In this document: in pieces, positions 13,239-23,528 of the stretch
Layout: each line of letters starts with the position of its first letter
Position numbering within the stretch: position 1 is the stretch's first letter
Source of the DNA: Methanoregula sp.
Lineage (GTDB): Archaea; Halobacteriota; Methanomicrobia; Methanomicrobiales; Methanospirillaceae
Length of the DNA: 42,486 bases
Reading direction: 5' to 3'
Assembly (NCBI GenBank): GCA_030694985.1
Contig: JAUYTV010000034.1
Span: forward strand, 1-42,486
Notes under the pieces: model-generated
What the model was told of the DNA's origin: nothing
Databases searched by the model: none
The model's input: only the letters and a program-made list of their open reading frames with translations
Translations under genes and position numbers: made by a program

Positions 13239-13502
13239 TCAGGAATACACCTCGTCATGATGCCTGAATTTTAATAAGACCACACAATGTTCCTGGTGTT
13301 CAATTTTATAGATCAGGACATAGGGTCCGATATGCACTCGCCATTTTCCCTTTAACAGGTTGCGAAGGGGTTTGCCATTTTCCGGGTATTCGGTGATAAA
13401 TTCGATCTTTCTGGAGAGTTGTTCTAATCGAGCCGGATCATTTCTAAGATATTTGAGAATCTCCTCTCTCAGACCCGGCCGATAGCGCAGTGTATATGTC
13501 AT
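13239..13502 (-). CDS. RelE/ParE-type toxin
   Basis: 87 residues with the RelE/ParE pattern: N-terminal beta strand MTYTLRYRPGL, two helices (REEILKYLRNDP, LEQLSRKIEFI), GKPLRNLLKGKWRVHIGPY and a C-terminal strand ending KFRHHDEVY. The Arg, Lys and final His/Tyr positions fit a ribosome-dependent mRNA interferase. The gene starts inside the end of its antitoxin gene (4-base overlap), the typical co-translated order antitoxin then toxin. Confidence 0.85.
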   Translation of the reverse strand: MTYTLRYRPGLREEILKYLRNDPARLEQLSRKIEFITEYPENGKPLRNLLKGKWRVHIGPYVLIYKIEHQEHCVVLLKFRHHDEVYS

Positions 13503-13916: not shown

Positions 13917-16900
13917 TTATTCGAGTTTGATAAATATTGTACCACCGGGCAATGCTTTGCATTTTGTGATTGGGTTTGTTATCGCTGCATTCGCATCCTC
14001 TGCTCCTGCCACGATCTGTATGTCAAAGCATTTTCCCGTGGGCCATAATGCTGTATCGGAAGTGGGTATTGTTTGCTGAGTCGTTTCTTCGATTACAGGT
14101 GTAGTTATGAATACCAATCCACCGGGAACGGTCTTCCATTGCGTATCTCCCGTCACCCGGTACAGGATCGCTTCCTGAACGGTTTTGTCGCCATCATAGG
14201 TGGTATTCCACTTTATGGTCCAGACATTCGGATCAGGGTTTGCACCTTCAACAAATGAGAGATTATCTACCCGGAGCGTTTTGCTGCCAAAACCGGTATT
14301 TACGATACTCGCCCTGACCCTGCACTGCATTGCGGGAATAAATCCCGTCTGGGTTATACCAGTTGACGCATCCGTAAACGAGATGGCTGAACTACCTAGG
14401 CCAAACAGATCAATACTTCCTGCCTTTGTCAGGTTCAGTTGGAATGTTGCGCGCCAGGTTTCATTGAGCTTGATCGTGCCGACATCAAAAGCCATGGTCC
14501 GGGCATTCCATGCAGCGGTATCGTCACGGCTTTCACTGAAAATCTGGTGAATGACACCATCTTTGGTGATGTTGAATTTGTTGATGTACGTGGAGTAACC
14601 CTCGTGATACTCATAATCCATATACTTCGTGATGTACTCATCATTGATCTTTATGGTCCCAAAATCCAGATTCACCTGAGTCTCGCCACCTGCCGTTTCC
14701 TGCAGGTCACCGGCAATATTTGTATAGATCTGTTCGAGTTCCCCGGGATCATTTGCATTTGAATACTTACCCCCGGTTGTAGTTGCATATCGTTCTAAGA
14801 TTGTCTGATAAGCACTCGACACGCCGAGACCTACCGGGTAAATTTTAATATCCTTGTTTTTTGCATAGGTGATGACACTGTCAGTTTCTGCGAGATCGGC
14901 AGCAGAAAATCTTGGCGTAGCACTGGTGAGTGCTTCAGGATCATTGCCTGTATTGTATTCGCCATCCGTAAGCAGGATAATCGCCCGTACCCTTCCGGGA
15001 GTTGAAGCGGGCAGCATGTTGACCGCCCGATAGATCCCTTCGCGTGTTGGAGTGCTGCCCGCAGGTACAATTGACTTCATTGCCGCATCCACATCCGCCT
15101 GGGTATGAGTACCAAAGGAGAGATCTTCCCGGTATTTCACACCCGCCCCATAATCCCGCGGAACTCCATCATTGTAATTTGATACAATATACTGGTGATG
15201 GGGTGAGGTAAGGGAATAAACACCTCCAATACGCACTAATGGATACCATGTAGGTAACTTACACCCTACACAATCCAGACTGTCCCATTTCGAATCATCC
15301 GTTTTCGCCAGATACGCAGAACTATAAACATTGGTCCAGTCCCAGCTACCATCACTTCCTGTCGGAGCTAACTGTGCCCACCGGGTATCTCCAAATGAGA
15401 TTTCACCTATCTTATCAACTGAAGCCAGTTTTGAGAAAAAGAGCGAACAGGCAGCTTTTGCGCTGACCATTCGATCCGGATCCCCTTCAAGCATGCTCCC
15501 GGAACGGTCATTTAAGAGTACTACATCAATGGGTTTTGGCCAAAGCGCCGCGCCGTCCCCCTTGAGTTGTATGGTGATACTAATTTTGTCCCCCACCTGG
15601 GAGTTCCCACAGTCCGCAATAGATGATGTGCTGATGTACGGATAGTTTTTCCAGACCAGCGTGACATCCTTAGTGATCAGGATACCGGATTTGTTCGTCC
15701 ACGATGCCGTAGCAACAACCTGCCCGGTGGCTGTAGCATTATATCCATCAGCACCATAGATTGCGAATGCTCCCGGGCTGAATTCTACGGTTGCATATCC
15801 GCTGATACCATCTACAGGCACGGGTAATTGAGTAGATAGGCTGGGATCTGCAGTCACGATATAGGGCCCCCCGGGATAGGTCGAGGCTGCAAGCGAGAAT
15901 GTGACAAGTTCTCCTGTCACCGGGTTGCCCTTGATATCGATCACCCGTGCCTGGAGAACGGCCCGGGTCGAGGAAGCAACATCAAGACTCGTCATGGACT
16001 GCGGATTTCCGGTAAATGTCAGGTCTACGGGGTCGGTATTATAATATTCAATATCCTGACTGCAATACCCCACAGTGCCGGTGTTTATCCCGGTGCACAC
16101 AGCGCTCGCATTCTCAAGAGGGGTCGCTTTAAGAGTATAAACACCGATCGTATCTTTCGGGCCAAAGGAAATTCTTAATCGTCCCCAGGTATTAGTTGGT
16201 GCAATCACGCTCATTCCATCTGTTGAATCACAGTACACAGATGCCCCGGTGATCGGGTTGTTGTACTTATCAGTTACCGTGTAATAAATTTCTACAGCGC
16301 TTTCCGGGAGCCCATCGGCAGGAAGGGATGAACCGGGACTGGCCGGGGTCTGCGCAATATAATAGGGTTTGCTTTCCGCTACACCCTGGATATATGTCCC
16401 CGGGGGAACTACGATATTTCCAATGGGATCCATCTGGATGTAATTACTTCTGACAGCAGTCGATATTCTGAGAACGGCAGATACGTTACCATCTGCATCC
16501 GTTGAATAGGTTTTCTGGGTAACGTAATTCTCACCATCCTGTAATCCTGCGCCACCATCATCTGTCATGGTGAGACGGATGGTTTCTGCACTATTTTTGT
16601 TATCTATCCGATTGCCCCATCGATCAACAAGGGTTACACTTACACCGGTTATTGAACCTACCGGTAACTCCGCCGGGTTTTCAAACGTTGCCCCTTGAGG
16701 TGTATCGTGATCGATCCGCTGGATGGTGGAAACCTGAACCGGCGTTGTAGTACCATCATTAAAGGAGATTGTTGCAATTATTGTGGCAGTACCGCTTTTT
16801 TTACTGGTTGTAAATACCGCTGTTGCTTTTCCATCAGCACCGGTTACCACAGATGCCGGAGCTAAAGGGGAGATCGTTCCCAAATCCTGAGAGGCCGGAT

Positions 16901-17117
16901 CAAGAGAGAAGATGACATTTGCACCAGAGACGGGGGTTGGGGGAGTCCCTGTCGCCAGTGCATAAACGGTGATTGTGGATTGGTCGCTCCCGTCATTTGC
17001 AATGAGCCAGCCCGGATTGCTGCTGCTGATAGTTGACGGAAAAAGGTCTATTGCAGCTGCTGAACTTATCAGCAGAGCCAGACAAAAAAAAACCAGAACC
17101 CATCGTTTAACTAACAT
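13917..17117 (-). CDS. Large surface protein with Ig-like (Big-1) and von Willebrand A domains
   Basis: 1066 residues from ATG 17117 (a TTG at 17150 would add 11). Signal peptide at residues 1-24 (WVLVFFCLALLISSAAA). Residues about 25-510 hold four or five Big-1/invasin-like Ig domains, recognisable by GANVIFSLDP, TGADGKATAVFTT, DRWGNRID, DKYNNPITGASV and DIKGNPVTGELVTFSL. Residues about 530-800 are a vWA domain with MIDAS motif NDRSGSM (Asp about 537), TPTREGIYRA and LLTDGEYNTG; roughly 90 residues with Trp, Tyr and a CVGC pair are inserted after the first strand. The C-terminal 250 residues are beta-rich. There is no clear C-terminal anchor. It is divergent from the pilin-like operon. vWA domains bind ligands through a metal; an adhesin or pilus-tip role similar to PilY1 is inference. 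Confidence 0.85.
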   Translation of the reverse strand: MLVKRWVLVFFCLALLISSAAAIDLFPSTISSSNPGWLIANDGSDQSTITVYALATGTPPTPVSGANVIFSLDPASQDLGTISPLAPASVVTGADGKATAVFTTSKKSGTATIIATISFNDGTTTPVQVSTIQRIDHDTPQGATFENPAELPVGSITGVSVTLVDRWGNRIDNKNSAETIRLTMTDDGGAGLQDGENYVTQKTYSTDADGNVSAVLRISTAVRSNYIQMDPIGNIVVPPGTYIQGVAESKPYYIAQTPASPGSSLPADGLPESAVEIYYTVTDKYNNPITGASVYCDSTDGMSVIAPTNTWGRLRISFGPKDTIGVYTLKATPLENASAVCTGINTGTVGYCSQDIEYYNTDPVDLTFTGNPQSMTSLDVASSTRAVLQARVIDIKGNPVTGELVTFSLAASTYPGGPYIVTADPSLSTQLPVPVDGISGYATVEFSPGAFAIYGADGYNATATGQVVATASWTNKSGILITKDVTLVWKNYPYISTSSIADCGNSQVGDKISITIQLKGDGAALWPKPIDVVLLNDRSGSMLEGDPDRMVSAKAACSLFFSKLASVDKIGEISFGDTRWAQLAPTGSDGSWDWTNVYSSAYLAKTDDSKWDSLDCVGCKLPTWYPLVRIGGVYSLTSPHHQYIVSNYNDGVPRDYGAGVKYREDLSFGTHTQADVDAAMKSIVPAGSTPTREGIYRAVNMLPASTPGRVRAIILLTDGEYNTGNDPEALTSATPRFSAADLAETDSVITYAKNKDIKIYPVGLGVSSAYQTILERYATTTGGKYSNANDPGELEQIYTNIAGDLQETAGGETQVNLDFGTIKINDEYITKYMDYEYHEGYSTYINKFNITKDGVIHQIFSESRDDTAAWNARTMAFDVGTIKLNETWRATFQLNLTKAGSIDLFGLGSSAISFTDASTGITQTGFIPAMQCRVRASIVNTGFGSKTLRVDNLSFVEGANPDPNVWTIKWNTTYDGDKTVQEAILYRVTGDTQWKTVPGGLVFITTPVIEETTQQTIPTSDTALWPTGKCFDIQIVAGAEDANAAITNPITKCKALPGGTIFIKLE

Positions 17118-17554
17118 ACCAATCAGATTGAAAAGAGTGATAACACCCAATATTATATATAATTTTCCTTTTTAAAAATTGCTTTAAAATAACTCTGAAG
17201 TAAAAAATAACAGTAATATTGGCAAATTTTGTGAATACGCACCATATCCATAAGGGATCTTGGTTCGGTAAAAAACATCAGGCCCGGTCAAACGAAAGAT
17301 TCCATTGCCGGAGATACAAACAAAAACCTTTCCAAACTGTTGATTGCGCTAAAAAGAGATGCTTTCAACTGCTAAACTCGCTCGTGGGACTGATAACTGA
17401 TCACGCAAACATAGTATTTTTTCTAAATCCAATGTGTTTCTCCTCCCCAAATCCCGTTCTTTTTTCCGATTCGATTATTAAGAAGAAATTTCGCAGATCC
17501 AGATAAACCAATCTTTATATTCACCATCCATCCTATAAACCATGAGGCAAACCC
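17118..17554. promoter_or_regulatory. Divergent promoter region between adhesin gene and pilin-like operon
   Basis: 437 bp with no convincing gene. A TATA-like TTATATATAAT (about 17152-17162) reads toward the adhesin gene, 35-45 bases from its ATG. CTTTATATTC (17512-17521) reads toward the operon, 34-43 bases from ATG 17555. The AT-rich interior shows nothing else that I can name. Confidence 0.55.
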
Positions 17555-18169
17555 ATGAGAAAAGGGGCATATGTTTTTTTTTTCATACTGTTGGTTGTAG
17601 CCATCGTTGTCATGATTGTAGGAAACCCGCTCTCATTTTTTAATCCGTCTCAAAAAGCCACACACTCAAAAGTTGATGTCGGGTTTGTTGTTCTGAACCA
17701 GTCCGATGAGTTTGTTCGGATCAATTTTGAAGAGATCGCACCAAATGTCAAGTACGTTGGGATAAACCGGGAAGAAAGTCCATCTCAAAATACTACAAAA
17801 ACAACGCACATCCATCTGATCCGAGGATATAAACTGGATGCAACAGGAAACGCAAGCAGTTGGATCTTTGTTGTCCGGCAACCGCAACAGGTGTCACTGG
17901 TAACCTACGATCGCTCTGGTGAAACAGTAAATACCTGGCTGGGCGGGTACCCGGAAAAAGAGATAATCATCAGTGAGATAATTACACCACGTAAACTTTT
18001 TGAAAAGAACCGGGAGCAGATTTTTAAAACACCCCAGGCGATCACAACAGAGTCAAGAGAACTTGCCCTGGCAGAAGGTAACTATTATCTCACAATAAAC
18101 GGCCCGCAAAAAACAAGGTACCTCGTATTCGATGCAAAGACTGGGGTGTTGACATCATCAAATGACTAA
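17555..18169 (+). CDS. Membrane-anchored protein, first gene of pilin-like operon
   Basis: 204 residues. One N-terminal transmembrane segment (residues about 5-27, VFFFILLVVAIVVMIVG) after MRKGA, then an extracytoplasmic domain of about 170 residues with several beta-like strands (VDVGFVVLNQSDEFVRINF, WIFVVRQPQQVSLVTY, YYLTINGPQKTRYLVF) and NXT glycosylation-type sites. I do not recognise a family. Its 3' end overlaps the next gene by 8 bases, which argues for one transcript and a shared function with the pilin-like proteins. GAGG lies about 10 bases before the ATG. Confidence 0.75.
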   Translation: MRKGAYVFFFILLVVAIVVMIVGNPLSFFNPSQKATHSKVDVGFVVLNQSDEFVRINFEEIAPNVKYVGINREESPSQNTTKTTHIHLIRGYKLDATGNASSWIFVVRQPQQVSLVTYDRSGETVNTWLGGYPEKEIIISEIITPRKLFEKNREQIFKTPQAITTESRELALAEGNYYLTINGPQKTRYLVFDAKTGVLTSSND

Positions 18170-19265
18170 AGATTCCGGATTAATGTCGATTGACTTTTTA
18201 GTAGGTTTCACTATCTTCATGATTACCTTTATCTGGGTGGCAACCCTGATACCGGGGCTGTTTATCGGCCTTCAGTCACATACGATCGATTACGATGCCG
18301 TTGCATACCGGACAGGAGTAATTCTTGTAGAGGACCCCGGAGCTGTCGGACCACTGGTAATAGGTGACCAGCCGTGGGAGATCCAGAACGACAAGCGCGA
18401 TGTTGCACGATTCGGCCTTGCGGTCTCAAAAGATACCCCCCTCATTCTCTATGAAAACAAGGTGAACCGCTTTTTCTGCTCCACGGCGTTTTCCTATCCG
18501 GAAGATTATCAGAAACGGGCGATCTTCGGGGACTTTATCTACCAGTTCAACATCTCCCTCAGGTCTGTTGGCGAGGATACAATCCGATCGGTTGGCGATG
18601 TTGTTCCAGACAATTACCAGTACGGGTATATCCGCAGGGATGTAAAGATCAAGGGTTCAAGCAACACAACGATCGGTAATACGATGATCACGAAGTATGG
18701 TTACAAAAATACCGAGAACGTGACGTTAAACGAGTTCCGGATTGTAATCAATTCATCGCACCTCCTTACAGGGGATGTGGGTGAAATTGTCAATCCAAAC
18801 GGCGATGCTGCGTACCGGATCAACCCAAACGGGGATCGAATTATTATCAATATTACTGATCTGGAGGATACGCGAAATACGGTTGCACATCCCCCATCCG
18901 AACCTTACACAGTCAACCTAAAAGAAGTAAAATTCTACCAGACACACATTGGGGATGTAAACCTCTATTCCTTTTCTCCAGCTGCGGCATTTGAAAATTA
19001 TGTGTATGTCAACTGGGGTACGACTGCAGTAAAACCACCAGTCAGCCTTGGTACCGACAGAAATCTGTCGATGATTTTTGAGCCGGGGTTTTTCTTAAGT
19101 ACGGATAAGTACGGTGCGATCTACATCAACCTGACCTTTGAACTGGATCCACCCCAACAGTTCCTCAATAATACCCGTACCCGTCCGTTTGATTACAATT
19201 ACCATCCCGCAAATGTTACACAACCCGCATTGACTGACGCAGTCATGGAGGTGGCCATATGGTAA
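18162..19265 (+). CDS. Pilin-like membrane protein (type IV pilin-like N-terminus), second gene
   Basis: 367 residues; a second in-frame ATG at 18183 is possible. The short charged leader MTKDSGL is followed by SIDFLVGFTIFMITFIWV, a class III-like signal/hydrophobic helix as in archaeal pilins and in haloarchaeal pilin-like DUF families (xTxDFxxGxxxF pattern). The remaining 340 residues are extracytoplasmic, beta-rich, with several N-X-S/T sites. There is a second hydrophobic stretch only up to residue about 38 (TLIPGLFIGL). Overlaps both neighbours (8 bases before, 7 after). Likely a minor pilin or pseudopilin; large for the class. Confidence 0.78.
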   Translation: MTKDSGLMSIDFLVGFTIFMITFIWVATLIPGLFIGLQSHTIDYDAVAYRTGVILVEDPGAVGPLVIGDQPWEIQNDKRDVARFGLAVSKDTPLILYENKVNRFFCSTAFSYPEDYQKRAIFGDFIYQFNISLRSVGEDTIRSVGDVVPDNYQYGYIRRDVKIKGSSNTTIGNTMITKYGYKNTENVTLNEFRIVINSSHLLTGDVGEIVNPNGDAAYRINPNGDRIIINITDLEDTRNTVAHPPSEPYTVNLKEVKFYQTHIGDVNLYSFSPAAAFENYVYVNWGTTAVKPPVSLGTDRNLSMIFEPGFFLSTDKYGAIYINLTFELDPPQQFLNNTRTRPFDYNYHPANVTQPALTDAVMEVAIW

Positions 19266-19771
19266 ACACCGATGGGCAACTGTATACCATCGAGGGCATA
19301 GCCGCTGGTCTCATCATGCTCATGACTGCCTACATTGTGATCAACAGTACGTCCGTGTATACGTTGGGTGACACGCATATCAGCGATATGCAACTTGAAG
19401 TGCTGGGGAGTGATGCCCTGAACCTGATAAATACGGCCCCCAATAGTACACTTGGCAGGAGCCCGCTCCAGACAATCGTGGAAACCGATGATGCCGAAAC
19501 ATTCCGGTCAATGTTCCTTGCCATAGTCAACAACAGAGCCGGATCTGATCGGGATCATATTCAGTTTGTGGCAAATGTAACATACGTGGACTCGGGCGGT
19601 TCTGTAAGCAGTACAGTTCTGAGTGATTCCCTGCGACCGTTAGTTAGGGGGGAACACGCGGTGCGTGTTTCTGACTGGGTAATTATTGAAAAACAATTTC
19701 CTGACTGTTCAGCCCAGTCCTGTTCGGGTAAACATGCCGTACTCGTGGAGGTGCTCTTATGGCGGGATTAA
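19259..19771 (+). CDS. Pilin-like protein, third gene (DUF7288-like by pattern)
   Basis: 170 residues. The leader MVNTDGQL is followed by YTIEGIAAGLIMLMTAYIVI. The Gln and the Glu-5-like residue before the hydrophobic helix match the type IV pilin pattern, in which Glu5 aids filament assembly. The same 'GQxxTxEGxxA' arrangement is what I recall from haloarchaeal DUF7288 proteins; this family name needs a profile search. The periplasm-like domain is about 135 residues and includes two cysteines in CSAQSC. It overlaps the previous gene by 7 bases and the next by 13. Confidence 0.78.
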   Translation: MVNTDGQLYTIEGIAAGLIMLMTAYIVINSTSVYTLGDTHISDMQLEVLGSDALNLINTAPNSTLGRSPLQTIVETDDAETFRSMFLAIVNNRAGSDRDHIQFVANVTYVDSGGSVSSTVLSDSLRPLVRGEHAVRVSDWVIIEKQFPDCSAQSCSGKHAVLVEVLLWRD

Positions 19772-20139
19772 AGGATGATGCGCAGTGGATTGTGCTTATG
19801 GGTTTTGTGGTGAGTTTCAGCTTGTTCTTTATCGCAATTGTTCTCAACCAGTCAACAGTAATAGGACAAACAACCGCAGAAGCCGTATTGGAATTCCCAA
19901 AAAACGATATCCGTGGAGTAAGAGATGTGATCATCCAGTCCGAATTTCTGGATGACGGGGGGATATTTCTTAATAAAACAAATGTGCACAATGACATCCG
20001 GATCCTGTCATTGAGCCGACAGAATTCCGTAGTGAATATCTCGTCCACACCACCTACAGCTGGCAATCCCTATACCACTATCAATATTCATTACAACAAC
20101 GGAGTGACCGTATACAATGAGATCTGGAGATCAGAATAG
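19759..20139 (+). CDS. Pilin-like protein, fourth gene (DUF7261-like by pattern)
   Basis: 126 residues. MAGLKDDAQ is followed by a hydrophobic helix WIVLMGFVVSFSLFFIAIVL and then NQST. The 'DxAQ + hydrophobic + LNQ' start resembles haloarchaeal DUF7261 pilin-like proteins (from memory). The soluble part is about 95 residues. It starts 13 bases inside the preceding gene and ends 23 bases inside the next, so translation is presumably coupled. Confidence 0.75.
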   Translation: MAGLKDDAQWIVLMGFVVSFSLFFIAIVLNQSTVIGQTTAEAVLEFPKNDIRGVRDVIIQSEFLDDGGIFLNKTNVHNDIRILSLSRQNSVVNISSTPPTAGNPYTTINIHYNNGVTVYNEIWRSE

Positions 20140-20581
20140 AAGGACCCCGTGGAGCAAAGAAGCCGGCGTGGCAACATTGATAGGGTATATCATAATATCC
20201 GGAGTCCTCATGGCCCTCTTCATTGTCCTGCTCCTGTTAGTGAATGCAAATTTCATGGAAGGGCCTGCAAACACCCTCACGTATTCAGCATTCACCGATA
20301 TCAGTAACGGCATCTCCACCCGGATCGTTGACACCTATGCCATTGCACCCGACACCGGAAATATTACCTCACGATTCGACATACCGGATGACATTGCGGG
20401 GCGGGAATATTTTGTTGAGATCGGCAATACTGACGATCTGACCGCCCAGACCGTGACGGTATCGAGAGGTTCGATTGTCACGAATGTGGCAATCGCCGGT
20501 ATCGGTTCAACGCGAAGGGCGGGGGGAAATACCACGGGTACAGGTATGAACAGGATAAGTTACGATTCTGGAGGTTTTTAA
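20117..20581 (+). CDS. Pilin-like protein, fifth gene (DUF7266-like by pattern)
   Basis: 154 residues. The leader MRSGDQNRRTPWSKE is basic, then AGVATLIGYIIISGVLMALF starts the transmembrane helix, close to the xAVSxxxGYxLxxxV start of archaeal pilin-like families. The domain after the helix is about 110 residues, beta-rich, with an N-X-T site and a Gly/Asn-rich end. It overlaps the fourth gene by 23 bases and its stop shares one base with the start of the sixth gene. Confidence 0.77.
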   Translation: MRSGDQNRRTPWSKEAGVATLIGYIIISGVLMALFIVLLLLVNANFMEGPANTLTYSAFTDISNGISTRIVDTYAIAPDTGNITSRFDIPDDIAGREYFVEIGNTDDLTAQTVTVSRGSIVTNVAIAGIGSTRRAGGNTTGTGMNRISYDSGGF

Positions 20582-21390
20582 TGACGGGCAAAAATTACCG
20601 GATATCCTGCACTGCAGGGGTGTCTGAATCCATCGGATTCTTACTCATCTTCACCATAGTGATCGCGGGCATCGGACTTGTTACACTCTACGGTTACCCG
20701 ATGCTCCTCAAACAGCAGACCAGCGCCGATGAGCAGATCATGCAAAAGAACATGATCGTGTTGCAAAACGATCTGAAAAGTCTCGCGTACAAGACCGTGC
20801 CGTACAAAGAGACATCCTTAAAGATTGGGGGTGGGGCACTGATGGTATATAATTCGAGTTACACTCCCGCTTCATCAACGATAAAAATCTATGATCAGAA
20901 TAATATCGTGTACGTGAACGTATTCCAATCCGGGGATTTGCTATATTCCTCTGACAGTGCCGGTACAGACATCTCCCTCCAGAACGGAGCAGTGGTAAAG
21001 CGCCAGCACGCGGAACAGGGATCGGTGATGCTCGCTGAGCCCCGGTGGTTCTATGACAGCGAGACAAAGACCATGGTCATTAATTTCGTAAACCTCACCA
21101 GCACCGGAATAATGGCCAAGACCGGAGTCGGCACGGTACAGATGGTATTGGGAGAGGCCCGGTTCCAGAAGACAGATACTCCCCCTCTTGCCACTCCGGT
21201 ATACCTTGAATATACACCCGATCCGGTACAGGATTACTCAATAGCCTGGAACAACTACTTTACAAACCCCTCTTTGGGAATGACACTGTTGAGTGGAACA
21301 CCGGGGACTGGAACGATGCTGAAATATCAACTGCCCGATACTACCACACTGGTTATCAAACAATACGAAGTGAACATCAAATCGCTCTGA
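20581..21390 (+). CDS. Pilin-like protein, sixth gene (DUF7289-like by pattern)
   Basis: 269 residues. The leader MTGKNYRISCTAGVSES precedes IGFLLIFTIVIAGIGLVTLY, followed by YPMLLKQQTSADEQIMQKNM, a helix with the 'SxSxGFxLxFxI...' layout seen in haloarchaeal DUF7289 proteins and in pilins with a Ser at the cleavage region. The next 200 residues are beta-rich (YKTVPYKETSLKIGGGALMV, WFYDSETKTMVINFVNL). It is the last gene of the operon; a run of eight T follows the stop codon. Confidence 0.77.
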   Translation: MTGKNYRISCTAGVSESIGFLLIFTIVIAGIGLVTLYGYPMLLKQQTSADEQIMQKNMIVLQNDLKSLAYKTVPYKETSLKIGGGALMVYNSSYTPASSTIKIYDQNNIVYVNVFQSGDLLYSSDSAGTDISLQNGAVVKRQHAEQGSVMLAEPRWFYDSETKTMVINFVNLTSTGIMAKTGVGTVQMVLGEARFQKTDTPPLATPVYLEYTPDPVQDYSIAWNNYFTNPSLGMTLLSGTPGTGTMLKYQLPDTTTLVIKQYEVNIKSL

Positions 21391-22544: not shown

Positions 22545-23528
22545 ATGGGTCGTAAGGGGCGGAAATATCGAAACAAATCCACAAAAGCACTTTTGGAATA
22601 TTATGACGACGCATTCATCGTAAGTGAAGAAGAATCATATACCATCAATGATCAGGAATACTTGCTCAGGGATAGTCTGCATGTTGTGAAGGATGGTAAT
22701 GAATTCCTCTTCATTGACAACGAACCATACCTGATAAATAAAACGCCATCATCTGCTCCTCATAAAAAAACATCGACCATCGGAACTGTTTTCAAATTAT
22801 TGGTCGGCATTTTTGTTGGTGCTTTGATAGCTGCAATAATAATTTCATCTTTATTCGGATCCAACGTCATCGGCAATATGGCTAGTGATGTACAATCCAA
22901 ATTGAGTACCTTGCATACTACTTCTGCAACTCTGCCAACCACTCCTATTGTAAAGTCAGGCTCAATTGAACAACAACGAGCTGAAAAAATTAAAGAGGCG
23001 ATGGATTTTACAAATCCGGTAACAAGAGATTTTGCACTGACCTTTATCCCAAAATCGCACAGTGGAGAATACAATATAGCTCAGATTTGCGATCTCTGGG
23101 AGACGATCTATAAAAAATGGACCTATGTGAACGATCCCAGAGGGAGAGATTATTATTCACCTGCAAGCAGGACGATTCAGCTCGGGTTAAAGGGAGATTG
23201 TGATGACTTTGCAATTACTGTCGCGTCTGTTATCCAGTCAATTGGAGGCAGTTCCCGAGTTGTCACTGCGTATAATGCAGAAGGAGGGCATGCTTACCCG
23301 GAAGTATTTATTGGAACAAGAAAAACCTCCCTCGATGCTGCTGCTGAGTATATCAGCAAACGATATCATGTCAAGAGTATCGCCTATCACACACACACCA
23401 AAGATGGAGTTACTCAGTACTGGCTTAATCTTGATTGGCAATCTCAACATCCCGGAGGGAAATTTTTCCATGACTCCGGCGAATTGACATTCTATTATCC
23501 GAATGGATATTGGTATCAATCAAATTGA
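22545..23528 (+). CDS. Membrane-anchored transglutaminase-like (BTLCP/TgpA-type) protein
   Basis: 327 residues. Residues 1-75 form a small charged domain with repeated short strands (EEESYTINDQEYLLRD), residues about 80-105 a transmembrane segment (FKLLVGIFVGALIAAIIIS), then a Ser/Thr-rich linker and a papain/transglutaminase-like domain from about 150. The likely catalytic triad is Cys in GLKGDCDDFAITVASV, His in EGGHAYPEVFIG and Asp in WLNLDWQ. The active domain should lie outside the cell. Such proteins are usually cysteine proteases or peptide cross-linkers; the substrate is unknown. The gene is AT-rich compared with the housekeeping genes on either side. Confidence 0.85.
   Translation: MGRKGRKYRNKSTKALLEYYDDAFIVSEEESYTINDQEYLLRDSLHVVKDGNEFLFIDNEPYLINKTPSSAPHKKTSTIGTVFKLLVGIFVGALIAAIIISSLFGSNVIGNMASDVQSKLSTLHTTSATLPTTPIVKSGSIEQQRAEKIKEAMDFTNPVTRDFALTFIPKSHSGEYNIAQICDLWETIYKKWTYVNDPRGRDYYSPASRTIQLGLKGDCDDFAITVASVIQSIGGSSRVVTAYNAEGGHAYPEVFIGTRKTSLDAAAEYISKRYHVKSIAYHTHTKDGVTQYWLNLDWQSQHPGGKFFHDSGELTFYYPNGYWYQSN

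Follow-up and report, generated by a model that had tools for sequence, protein, structure and literature searches.

Pilin-like genes paired with a secreted vWA/Ig protein: a candidate adhesive pilus module in the methanogen Methanoregula

The window analysed here, 42,486 nucleotides that make up the complete contig C16 (JAUYTV010000034.1) of the Methanoregula sp. assembly GCA_030694985.1 (genome G000; 2.49 Mb, 96% complete), carries a divergent gene module at positions 13917-21390. A gene for a large secreted protein with immunoglobulin (Ig)-like repeats and a von Willebrand factor A (vWA) domain lies on one strand, and six overlapping genes, g1 to g6, lie on the other. We consider it probable, if some way from certain, that the module encodes the minor pilins of a euryarchaeal type IV pilus and, acting together with them, a secreted vWA/Ig adhesin. 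The evidence that carries this interpretation comes largely from other archaeal families, where vWA domains are fused to pilins of the g5 type (family f9) and the g4 type (family f25); because of these fusions, we tie the vWA protein to the pilus despite its S-layer-like neighbours in relatives. The fusions suggest that the appendage carries the large protein as its adhesive.

Results

Layout of the module

The six rightward genes all start with ATG, span 17555-21390 and overlap by 8 (g1/g2), 7 (g2/g3), 13 (g3/g4), 23 (g4/g5) and 1 (g5/g6) bases, so that similar dosage is likely. The vWA gene lies on the opposite strand in a TTG-started open reading frame (ORF) at 13917-17150, with 404 bases between the TTG and g1; the ATG at 17117 (1066 residues) is the likelier start compared with the TTG at 17150 (1077 residues). 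An earlier sequence-only reading of this DNA had described the same ORFs, a gene chain with overlaps of 1 to 23 bases and a divergent, secreted 1066-residue Ig/vWA neighbour, all of which the ORF check and the Pfam search bore out. A promoter and terminator scan designed for bacteria, applied here to an archaeal host, came out near its shuffled mean. The features are as follows.

13917-17117, minus strand: Ig (Big_1/Invasin_D3) and vWA protein, 1066 aa from the ATG (Pfam, hydrophobicity, model, alignment)
17118-17554, no strand: divergent intergenic region, AT-rich, with TATA-like stretches close to both genes (by eye)
17555-18169, plus strand: g1, putative membrane-anchored non-pilin, no family match (Pfam, alignment)
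18162-19265, plus strand: g2, DUF7287 pilin-like, leader ...KDSG/LMSIDF with D at +5 (Pfam, alignment)
19259-19771, plus strand: g3, DUF7288 pilin-like, leader ...NTDG/QLYTIEG (Pfam, alignment)
19759-20139, plus strand: g4, pilin-like, DUF7261-type slot, leader ...KDDA/QWIVLMGF, itself without a Pfam match (profile, alignment)
20117-20581, plus strand: g5, DUF7266-type pilin-like, 0.7 bit below the cut-off; the slot that is fused to vWA in family f9 (Pfam, alignment)
20581-21390, plus strand: g6, DUF7289 pilin-like (Pfam, alignment, structure model)

Fusions of vWA domains to pilins

Pilin leader and vWA domain are encoded by separate genes in the window and form a single chain in f9 and f25. 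In the f9 locus L121, an operon of the order g2-g3-g4-g5-g6-g6 has in its g5 slot an 807-residue protein composed of a g5-type pilin, PKD, a split vWA domain and a beta end; its vWA domain matches the window protein at 31% over 142 residues (3e-08) and the vWA profile of the window family at 4e-32. By a hand count of match rows that excluded G171 (two frame lengths) and G212 (two contigs), 26 of the 55 f9 genomes combine a g5 start with a match beyond query residue 700 in open frames of equal length (756-995 codons); 46 of the 55 match the fusion query somewhere, many through PKD alone. Among 20 fetched f9 loci, g5 and vWA share one ORF in 17, the other three (L350, L354, L360) being cut. These 17 fusions have g3-g4 on the 5' side in every case and g6 on the 3' side in 13, and all retain the helix start VSx[LM][VIL]EY[LI], a D.SGS and an [ST]DG.

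In L125 (f25), the vWA domain is carried by g4, a DUF7261 protein. Separate vWA genes adjoin the set in two further families: L119 and L120 (f8) have genes of 2005 and 1964 residues, with two vWA regions each, convergent to g6 (with an overlap of 8 bases in L119), and an 833-residue vWA gene precedes g2 in L130 (f24). The window-family vWA profile, run against 992 ORFs from 22 loci, found these five loci (L119, L120, L121, L125, L130) and no more at E <=10, and all five matches lie at or inside the pilin operon. There are 3-6 VWA_2 matches in G141, G179, G164 and G178, where, as a rough estimate for 8 kb, the probability of a chance neighbour is 0.01-0.03 per genome. In G067, a vWA frame of 1310 codons is found about 13 kb from the L122 genes. 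The bond between vWA protein and pilins that the sequence-only reading proposed is supported in other families by the fusions to g5 and g4 and by the neighbours; the link is recurrent, not universal.

The pilin set in other archaea

Outside the genus, the slots were located with profiles iterated from the order in 17 loci (L117-L133; the 3-kb L114 was excluded). The order g2-g3-g4-g5-g6 is kept in 10 of the 17 (L117, L119-L121, L124, L125, L130-L133), a recurrence that is more than chance; L118 and L122 have no recognised g4, L126 is partial, and L123, L127, L128 and L129 are permuted. The expectation of a haloarchaeal-type cluster of such families near pilus-assembly genes was supported by L118, in which four proteins match DUF7287, DUF7288, DUF7266 and DUF7289, in this order, at 90-216 bits behind PilB and TadC. 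DUF7289 is present in 54 of the 60 neighbourhood genomes, own included (50 above cut-off), and in 105 of the 148 sampled from the phylum.

Pilin-like proteins g2-g6 and the accessory g1

In Pfam, g2 matches DUF7287 (30.9 bits), g3 DUF7288 (41.9 bits) and g6 DUF7289 (66.9 bits), all above the cut-off of 27, and g5 misses DUF7266 narrowly, by 0.7 bit (26.9 bits, cut-off 27.6). Neither g1 nor g4 was matched in Pfam, and NCBIfam gave nothing specific for g1-g6; the g4 profile finds L119:8798-9259, itself a DUF7261 match at 28 bits. Of the profiles named beforehand, three are thus confirmed, DUF7266 falls just short and DUF7261 is reached only via relatives of g4. Pfam assigns no function to DUF7287, DUF7288, DUF7261, DUF7266 or DUF7289.

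One hydrophobic segment near the N-terminus is predicted in each of g1-g6. By eye, alignments A3-A7 of g2-g6 show a short leader, a small residue and one hydrophobic helix, the arrangement claimed earlier for five of the six genes, and a class III leader fits. As given in the available excerpts of PMC4371748, such leaders have G, A or S before the site and a charge at -2, the acidic residue at +5 being present only in a subset of archaea. The consensus sequences, G/xLSIDF for g2 (Asp at +5), G/QLYTIEG for g3, (A or G)/QWI for g4, G/VAxLIEY for g5 and G/VSE(S/T)(I/V)G for g6, resemble these archaeal signals. The g6 model has a 59-residue N-terminal helix and a beta-rich domain at a mean predicted local distance difference test score (pLDDT) of 84; the g6 profile reached a best E of 0.38 against PDB sequences.

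For g1, a lipobox-like Cys follows the helix in 15 of the 20 aligned rows, and for this reason we take g1 to be a non-pilin, probably a membrane-anchored accessory that looks like a lipoprotein; the Cys is absent from the window copy and from L214, L215, L219 and L255. The earlier count of six pilin-like genes is accordingly one too high.

Three further observations concern pilins of these families. In the pilin helix of the window g5, a Gly (LIGYI) stands in place of the Glu (LIEYI) that alignment A5 shows in 13 of 13 relatives. The g2 pilin (DUF7287) of G003, at L332:3-2618, is another modular pilin, extended at the C-terminus by a long region with cadherin-like and Ig domains. At the end of contig C47 of the window's own genome (L153:7074-9820), there is a second DUF7289-like cluster, with proteins of 340, 334 and 198 or more aa.

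The vWA/Ig protein

Above the Pfam cut-offs, the protein matches Invasin_D3 (55.3 bits), Big_1 (51.4), VWA_2 (33.2) and VWA (31.3). Ig-like Big_1/Invasin_D3 repeats are followed by the vWA domain, which has DRSGS and LTDG motifs and an insert, and then by a beta-rich end. A Sec-type signal is seen by eye; there is neither a C-terminal hydrophobic anchor nor a second hydrophobic segment, and the S-layer-like marks DUF3821 and PGF-CTERM were both unmatched in Pfam. PilY1-type adhesins have a C-terminal beta-propeller, the PilC/PilY1 domain. No Pfam match to this propeller was obtained in the vWA protein, whose C-terminal part is modelled as beta-rich at middling confidence and was not searched alone. 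Across 80 relatives, a C-terminal strand [YF]I[KR][LI]E is conserved (Ile at -4 in 68, Glu last in 48), with a tail beyond it in at least three rows (L162, L195, L202).

The AlphaFold model of the protein has a mean pLDDT of 79 and a predicted template-modelling score (pTM) of 0.48. Its top Foldseek match is the pneumococcal pilus adhesin RrgA (7e-15), SpaC is listed too, and whole-chain TM-scores are low. RrgA and SpaC belong to sortase-linked pili. They share with the window protein a vWA domain with flanking beta domains (PDB 2ww8, 6m48), a resemblance of fold only, with no common pilin. In a profile search of PDB sequences there were 12 matches, the best being the hypothetical membrane protein 4rck and the second Mfa5. 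Matches of the model to complement and alpha-2-macroglobulin were set aside as generic Ig-chain matches. Judged from the model, the fold identifies a vWA domain and does not identify a pilus.

Position of the vWA gene in Methanomicrobiales

The vWA gene is at the pilin locus in 17 of the 35 genus relatives. It is upstream and divergent, as in the window, in 12 of them (G004, G008, G012, G014, G017, G018, G020, G024, G029, G030, G033, G034) and downstream of g6 in five (G001, G006, in fragments, G011, G028 and G031); most of the remaining relatives lack one partner or have the partners on different contigs. A third position, between g1 and g2 on the opposite strand, occurs in eight named loci (six Methanolinea, one Methanoregulaceae, one uncultured) and in L131 and L132. 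The upstream-divergent and middle positions cannot share the operon transcript, which fits docking in trans and also a looser tie. In a tree of 80 vWA proteins, from which 14 of the 93 matches were excluded (under 800 aa, cut or broken), the upstream copies form one clade (support 100) that includes G009, whose copy fills its own contig; two middle-position copies fall in another clade (99), and the downstream copies lie among unlinked ones. The downstream vWA gene of G006 (L173:4699-7984) is broken into three ORFs and looks decayed or misassembled.

Tandem arrays of two to five vWA/Ig copies are found in other Methanomicrobiales (L156:3453-19674 with five, L157:2511-15256, L224, L227, L242), frequently flanked by a PEGA/S-layer-like pair on one side and CetZ on the other, an arrangement reminiscent of a cassette for surface variation.

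Co-occurrence of operon and vWA gene

Among 60 genomes, own included, 49 have both the operon and the vWA gene, three the operon only (G003, G007, G015), one the vWA gene only (G022) and seven neither. Operon presence was called from g2 and DUF7289; G002 and G028, each with a cut contig, and G003, which lacks DUF7289, were counted as present. We do not rely on the Fisher p of 2e-6. Contig gaps can explain several absences: G016, G022, G032 and G035 also lack the neighbouring hisG orthologue, and the contig of G021 ends in hisG. Other genes come after hisG in G010 and G023, bins that are 82% and 71% complete, and neither partner is found there; G055 (99%) has only g6-like remnants and no vWA gene. 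In G015, g2 is split across two frames.

Assembly machinery

The window's own genome encodes PilB, TadC and an A24 prepilin peptidase. Contig C50 has PilB-A and one long TadC; contig C34 has PilB-B (813 aa), two TadC, a MinD/ParA-type ATPase and the A24 prepilin peptidase. A third T2SSE gene, on C3, is taken for the archaellum by its layout. In other archaea, PilB/TadC adjoin the pilin families in five of the 17 loci (L118, L126, L127, L128, L129).

In relatives, PilB-A and PilB-B were separated by bit score alone; so defined, the PilB-A orthologue is missing from 17 of the 60 genomes, including the 99% complete, operon-bearing G042, G049, G051, G054 and G059. Because of these five genomes, the C34-type PilB appears the likelier motor of the g2-g6 set. 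The only PilB match in G015 is of the PilB-B type and groups with the C34 PilB at 100/100. The PilB-B type is also found in genomes without the operon and therefore must serve other pilins too. A further PilB/TadC pair, in G011 (L140:1494-6823), lies beside two small pilin-like genes and occupies a long branch of the PilB tree.

Discussion

Comparison with known systems

The pilin set itself is of an already known kind (2016 census). According to the excerpts of PMC4858521 that we could consult, the euryarchaeal clade-2 type IV pilus set, of the PilB4 type, likewise has an operon with several different pilins and a signature pilin (arCOG02911) that varies in length and tends to be duplicated; its ATPase and TadC may act in trans. 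The first of these features is seen here in the DUF7287, DUF7288, DUF7266 (0.7 bit under the cut-off) and DUF7289 pilins of one operon, and DUF7289, by its length and duplication, probably corresponds to arCOG02911. The window differs in having the ATPase and TadC on another contig and in being paired with a vWA/Ig protein, whereas these excerpts name no vWA adhesin for the clade-2 set.

Bacterial type IVa pili offer a parallel in PilY1/PilC, a non-pilin vWA protein encoded beside the minor pilins FimU-PilVWXE (excerpts of PMC5979040 and PMC9934059); here, however, the Ig repeats are N-terminal to the vWA domain and the machine is archaeal and Tad-like. The fusions in f9 and f25 are closer to the modular vWA pilins, Streptococcus sanguinis PilB (PMC9934059) and Caulobacter CpaL (PMC12607857), which, in the parts of these papers available, combine pilin and vWA in one chain and are thought to act as minor-pilin-borne adhesins in fused form. 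A beta-rich domain interrupts the vWA domain of CpaL, as happens in the g5-vWA proteins of f9, and the top Dali matches of CpaL include SpaC, RrgA and Mfa5 (PMC12607857, in part), all three of which are among the matches of the window vWA model. The window module differs from both in its separate genes, in its pilin families and in belonging to another domain of life. The pairing of a vWA protein with the pilin set and the archaeal pilin-vWA fusions look new: in the literature searched, which had subscription journals and preprints outside its scope, we found no publication that describes a vWA pilin or a vWA tip adhesin from archaea.

Proposed mechanism

By analogy with these systems, g2-g6 would pass through Sec and be cut by the A24 prepilin peptidase encoded on C34, after which the PilB/TadC set of C34 would build them into a short complex to initiate or cap a filament. 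The vWA protein would be exported separately and dock on this complex, of which it would be a covalent part in f9 and f25, and might use its metal-ion site to attach to a surface or to a partner cell; g1 would be a membrane-anchored accessory. The module would work like PilY1 with minor pilins; S. sanguinis PilB and Caulobacter CpaL would be the counterparts of the fused form. The tip position, docking and ligand of the vWA protein are conjectural parts of this scheme.

With slightly less than even confidence, we extend it to the phylum as one minor-pilin set with an interchangeable vWA tip: docked in Methanoregula and Methanolinea, encoded by a neighbouring gene in f8 and f24, and fused to g5 in f9 or g4 in f25. 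Archaeal type IV pili would then have an adhesive and perhaps force-sensing complex at the tip, a single lineage would contain both the PilY1-like and the PilB/CpaL-like solution, and in Methanomicrobiales the adhesin family would also have been lent to the S-layer.

Evidence against the interpretation and alternative explanations

Several observations weigh against the minor-pilin and adhesin interpretation. No PilB or TadC is present in the window, as the sequence-only reading had noted for PilB/PilC-like genes: the PF00437 matches of the genome are on other contigs (C3, C50, C34, C54). None of the five PilB-linked loci has the full order of the window (L118 lacks g4, L126 is partial, L127-L129 are permuted), and therefore the motor link rests on shared families, not on an identical operon; the linked PilB of L128 groups with the C34 type at only 83/72 in a tree of ten PilB. 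Foldseek gave no match for the g6 model against the PDB below E 0.001, with one chain at Z 2.0. For the vWA model, the best VIA-align match is 4fx5, a non-pilus bacterial vWA protein (Z 24.3), ahead of Mfa5 (22.6; 188 residues, 3.2 A); the archaeal regulator complex ArnAB (8s05; 22.2) scores above SpaC (20.9; 327 residues, 4.4 A), and TFIIH subunits, level with Mfa5 and above SpaC, and integrin I domains are matched too. Of the 14 phylum loci, nine (L117, L118, L122-L124, L126-L129) have no vWA gene in the 17-20 kb read for each. Co-loss of operon and vWA gene is weak, with five independent pairs and a median p of 0.125 on an aEF-2 tree of 57 genomes (G010, G014 and G016 are without the marker, and some rows are fragments).

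The position of the vWA gene counts in the same direction. It lies elsewhere in the genus genomes G005, G025 and G026, and it is at the pilin locus in none of the 24 genomes from five other families of the order (15 loci read; in the others, among the matches listed, the partners are on different contigs or at least 60 kb apart); S-layer-like genes adjoin many of these displaced copies. The synteny of adhesin and operon is thus retained in about half of the genus relatives and seen in none of these 24 genomes, a loss that had been set in advance as grounds for rejecting the module. Moreover, of 61 named loci, some of them from the same genomes as the numbered ones, 27 have the vWA gene near a PEGA/CarboxypepD membrane protein and 17 at the pilin locus, none having both; of the 27, 18 include a DUF3821-type protein and 19 CetZ. 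Two neighbours of vWA genes in relatives carry both DUF3821 and PGF-CTERM and are presumably S-layer proteins. Taken alone, the location in the order would favour an S-layer associated protein that merely drifted beside the operon in Methanoregula and Methanolinea, operon and adhesin being unrelated. The tandem copies, five of them in L156, and a PEGA gene in 55 of the 60 genomes agree with this explanation, which we nevertheless regard as unlikely, given the fusions to two different pilins and the vWA neighbours in f8, f24 and f1. The three arrangements at the pilin locus (upstream, g1/g2, downstream) also involve vWA proteins from different parts of the tree, and PEGA is present in 10 of the 10 genomes without a vWA match (several of them incomplete bins); therefore, the vWA gene does not simply follow PEGA.

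It is less probable still that the five pilin-like proteins form a short membrane pseudopilus, or a secretion or sensory complex, with no extended filament, for which the vWA protein would be a substrate or surface sensor. The overlap of all six genes, with its likely similar dosage, would suit such a complex, and no major pilin was identified in the window, the rest of the genome not having been searched for one. However, the same families stand beside PilB and TadC in the five loci noted above, and the excerpts of PMC4858521 describe stand-alone major pilin genes and ATPase/TadC modules that act in trans. An independent pseudopilus, which the sequence-only reading had allowed, is not supported, assembly genes being encoded elsewhere in the genome. 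We regard as very improbable a TadG-like anchor or a regulator of the pilus machine in place of an adhesin. A role in anchoring pili has been proposed for TadG-type vWA proteins, and vWA plus MoxR/GvpN genes occur in some archaeal type IV pilus loci (both from excerpts of PMC4858521), and the ArnAB match noted above involves ArnB, described in part of PMC4187195 as an archaellum repressor. The window protein, however, contains Ig repeats and a DxSxS motif, and its Sec-type signal is the one hydrophobic segment that it has.

Implications

The pairing with a vWA adhesin and the natural fusions give DUF7287, DUF7288, DUF7261, DUF7266 and DUF7289 a testable job. In our judgement, little is known about the means by which archaeal type IV pili adhere. 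For methanogens such as Methanoregula, the module offers a candidate mechanism by which cells could attach to surfaces or to syntrophic partners, and the separate and fused forms suggest that bacteria and archaea arrived at the same tip design.

Neighbouring genes

Between hisG and the vWA gene, a small ORF at 13239-13502 resembles, by eye, a RelE/ParE-type toxin. Just beyond the module, 22545-23528 encodes a membrane protein with a transglutaminase-like domain (Transglut_core, 32 bits).

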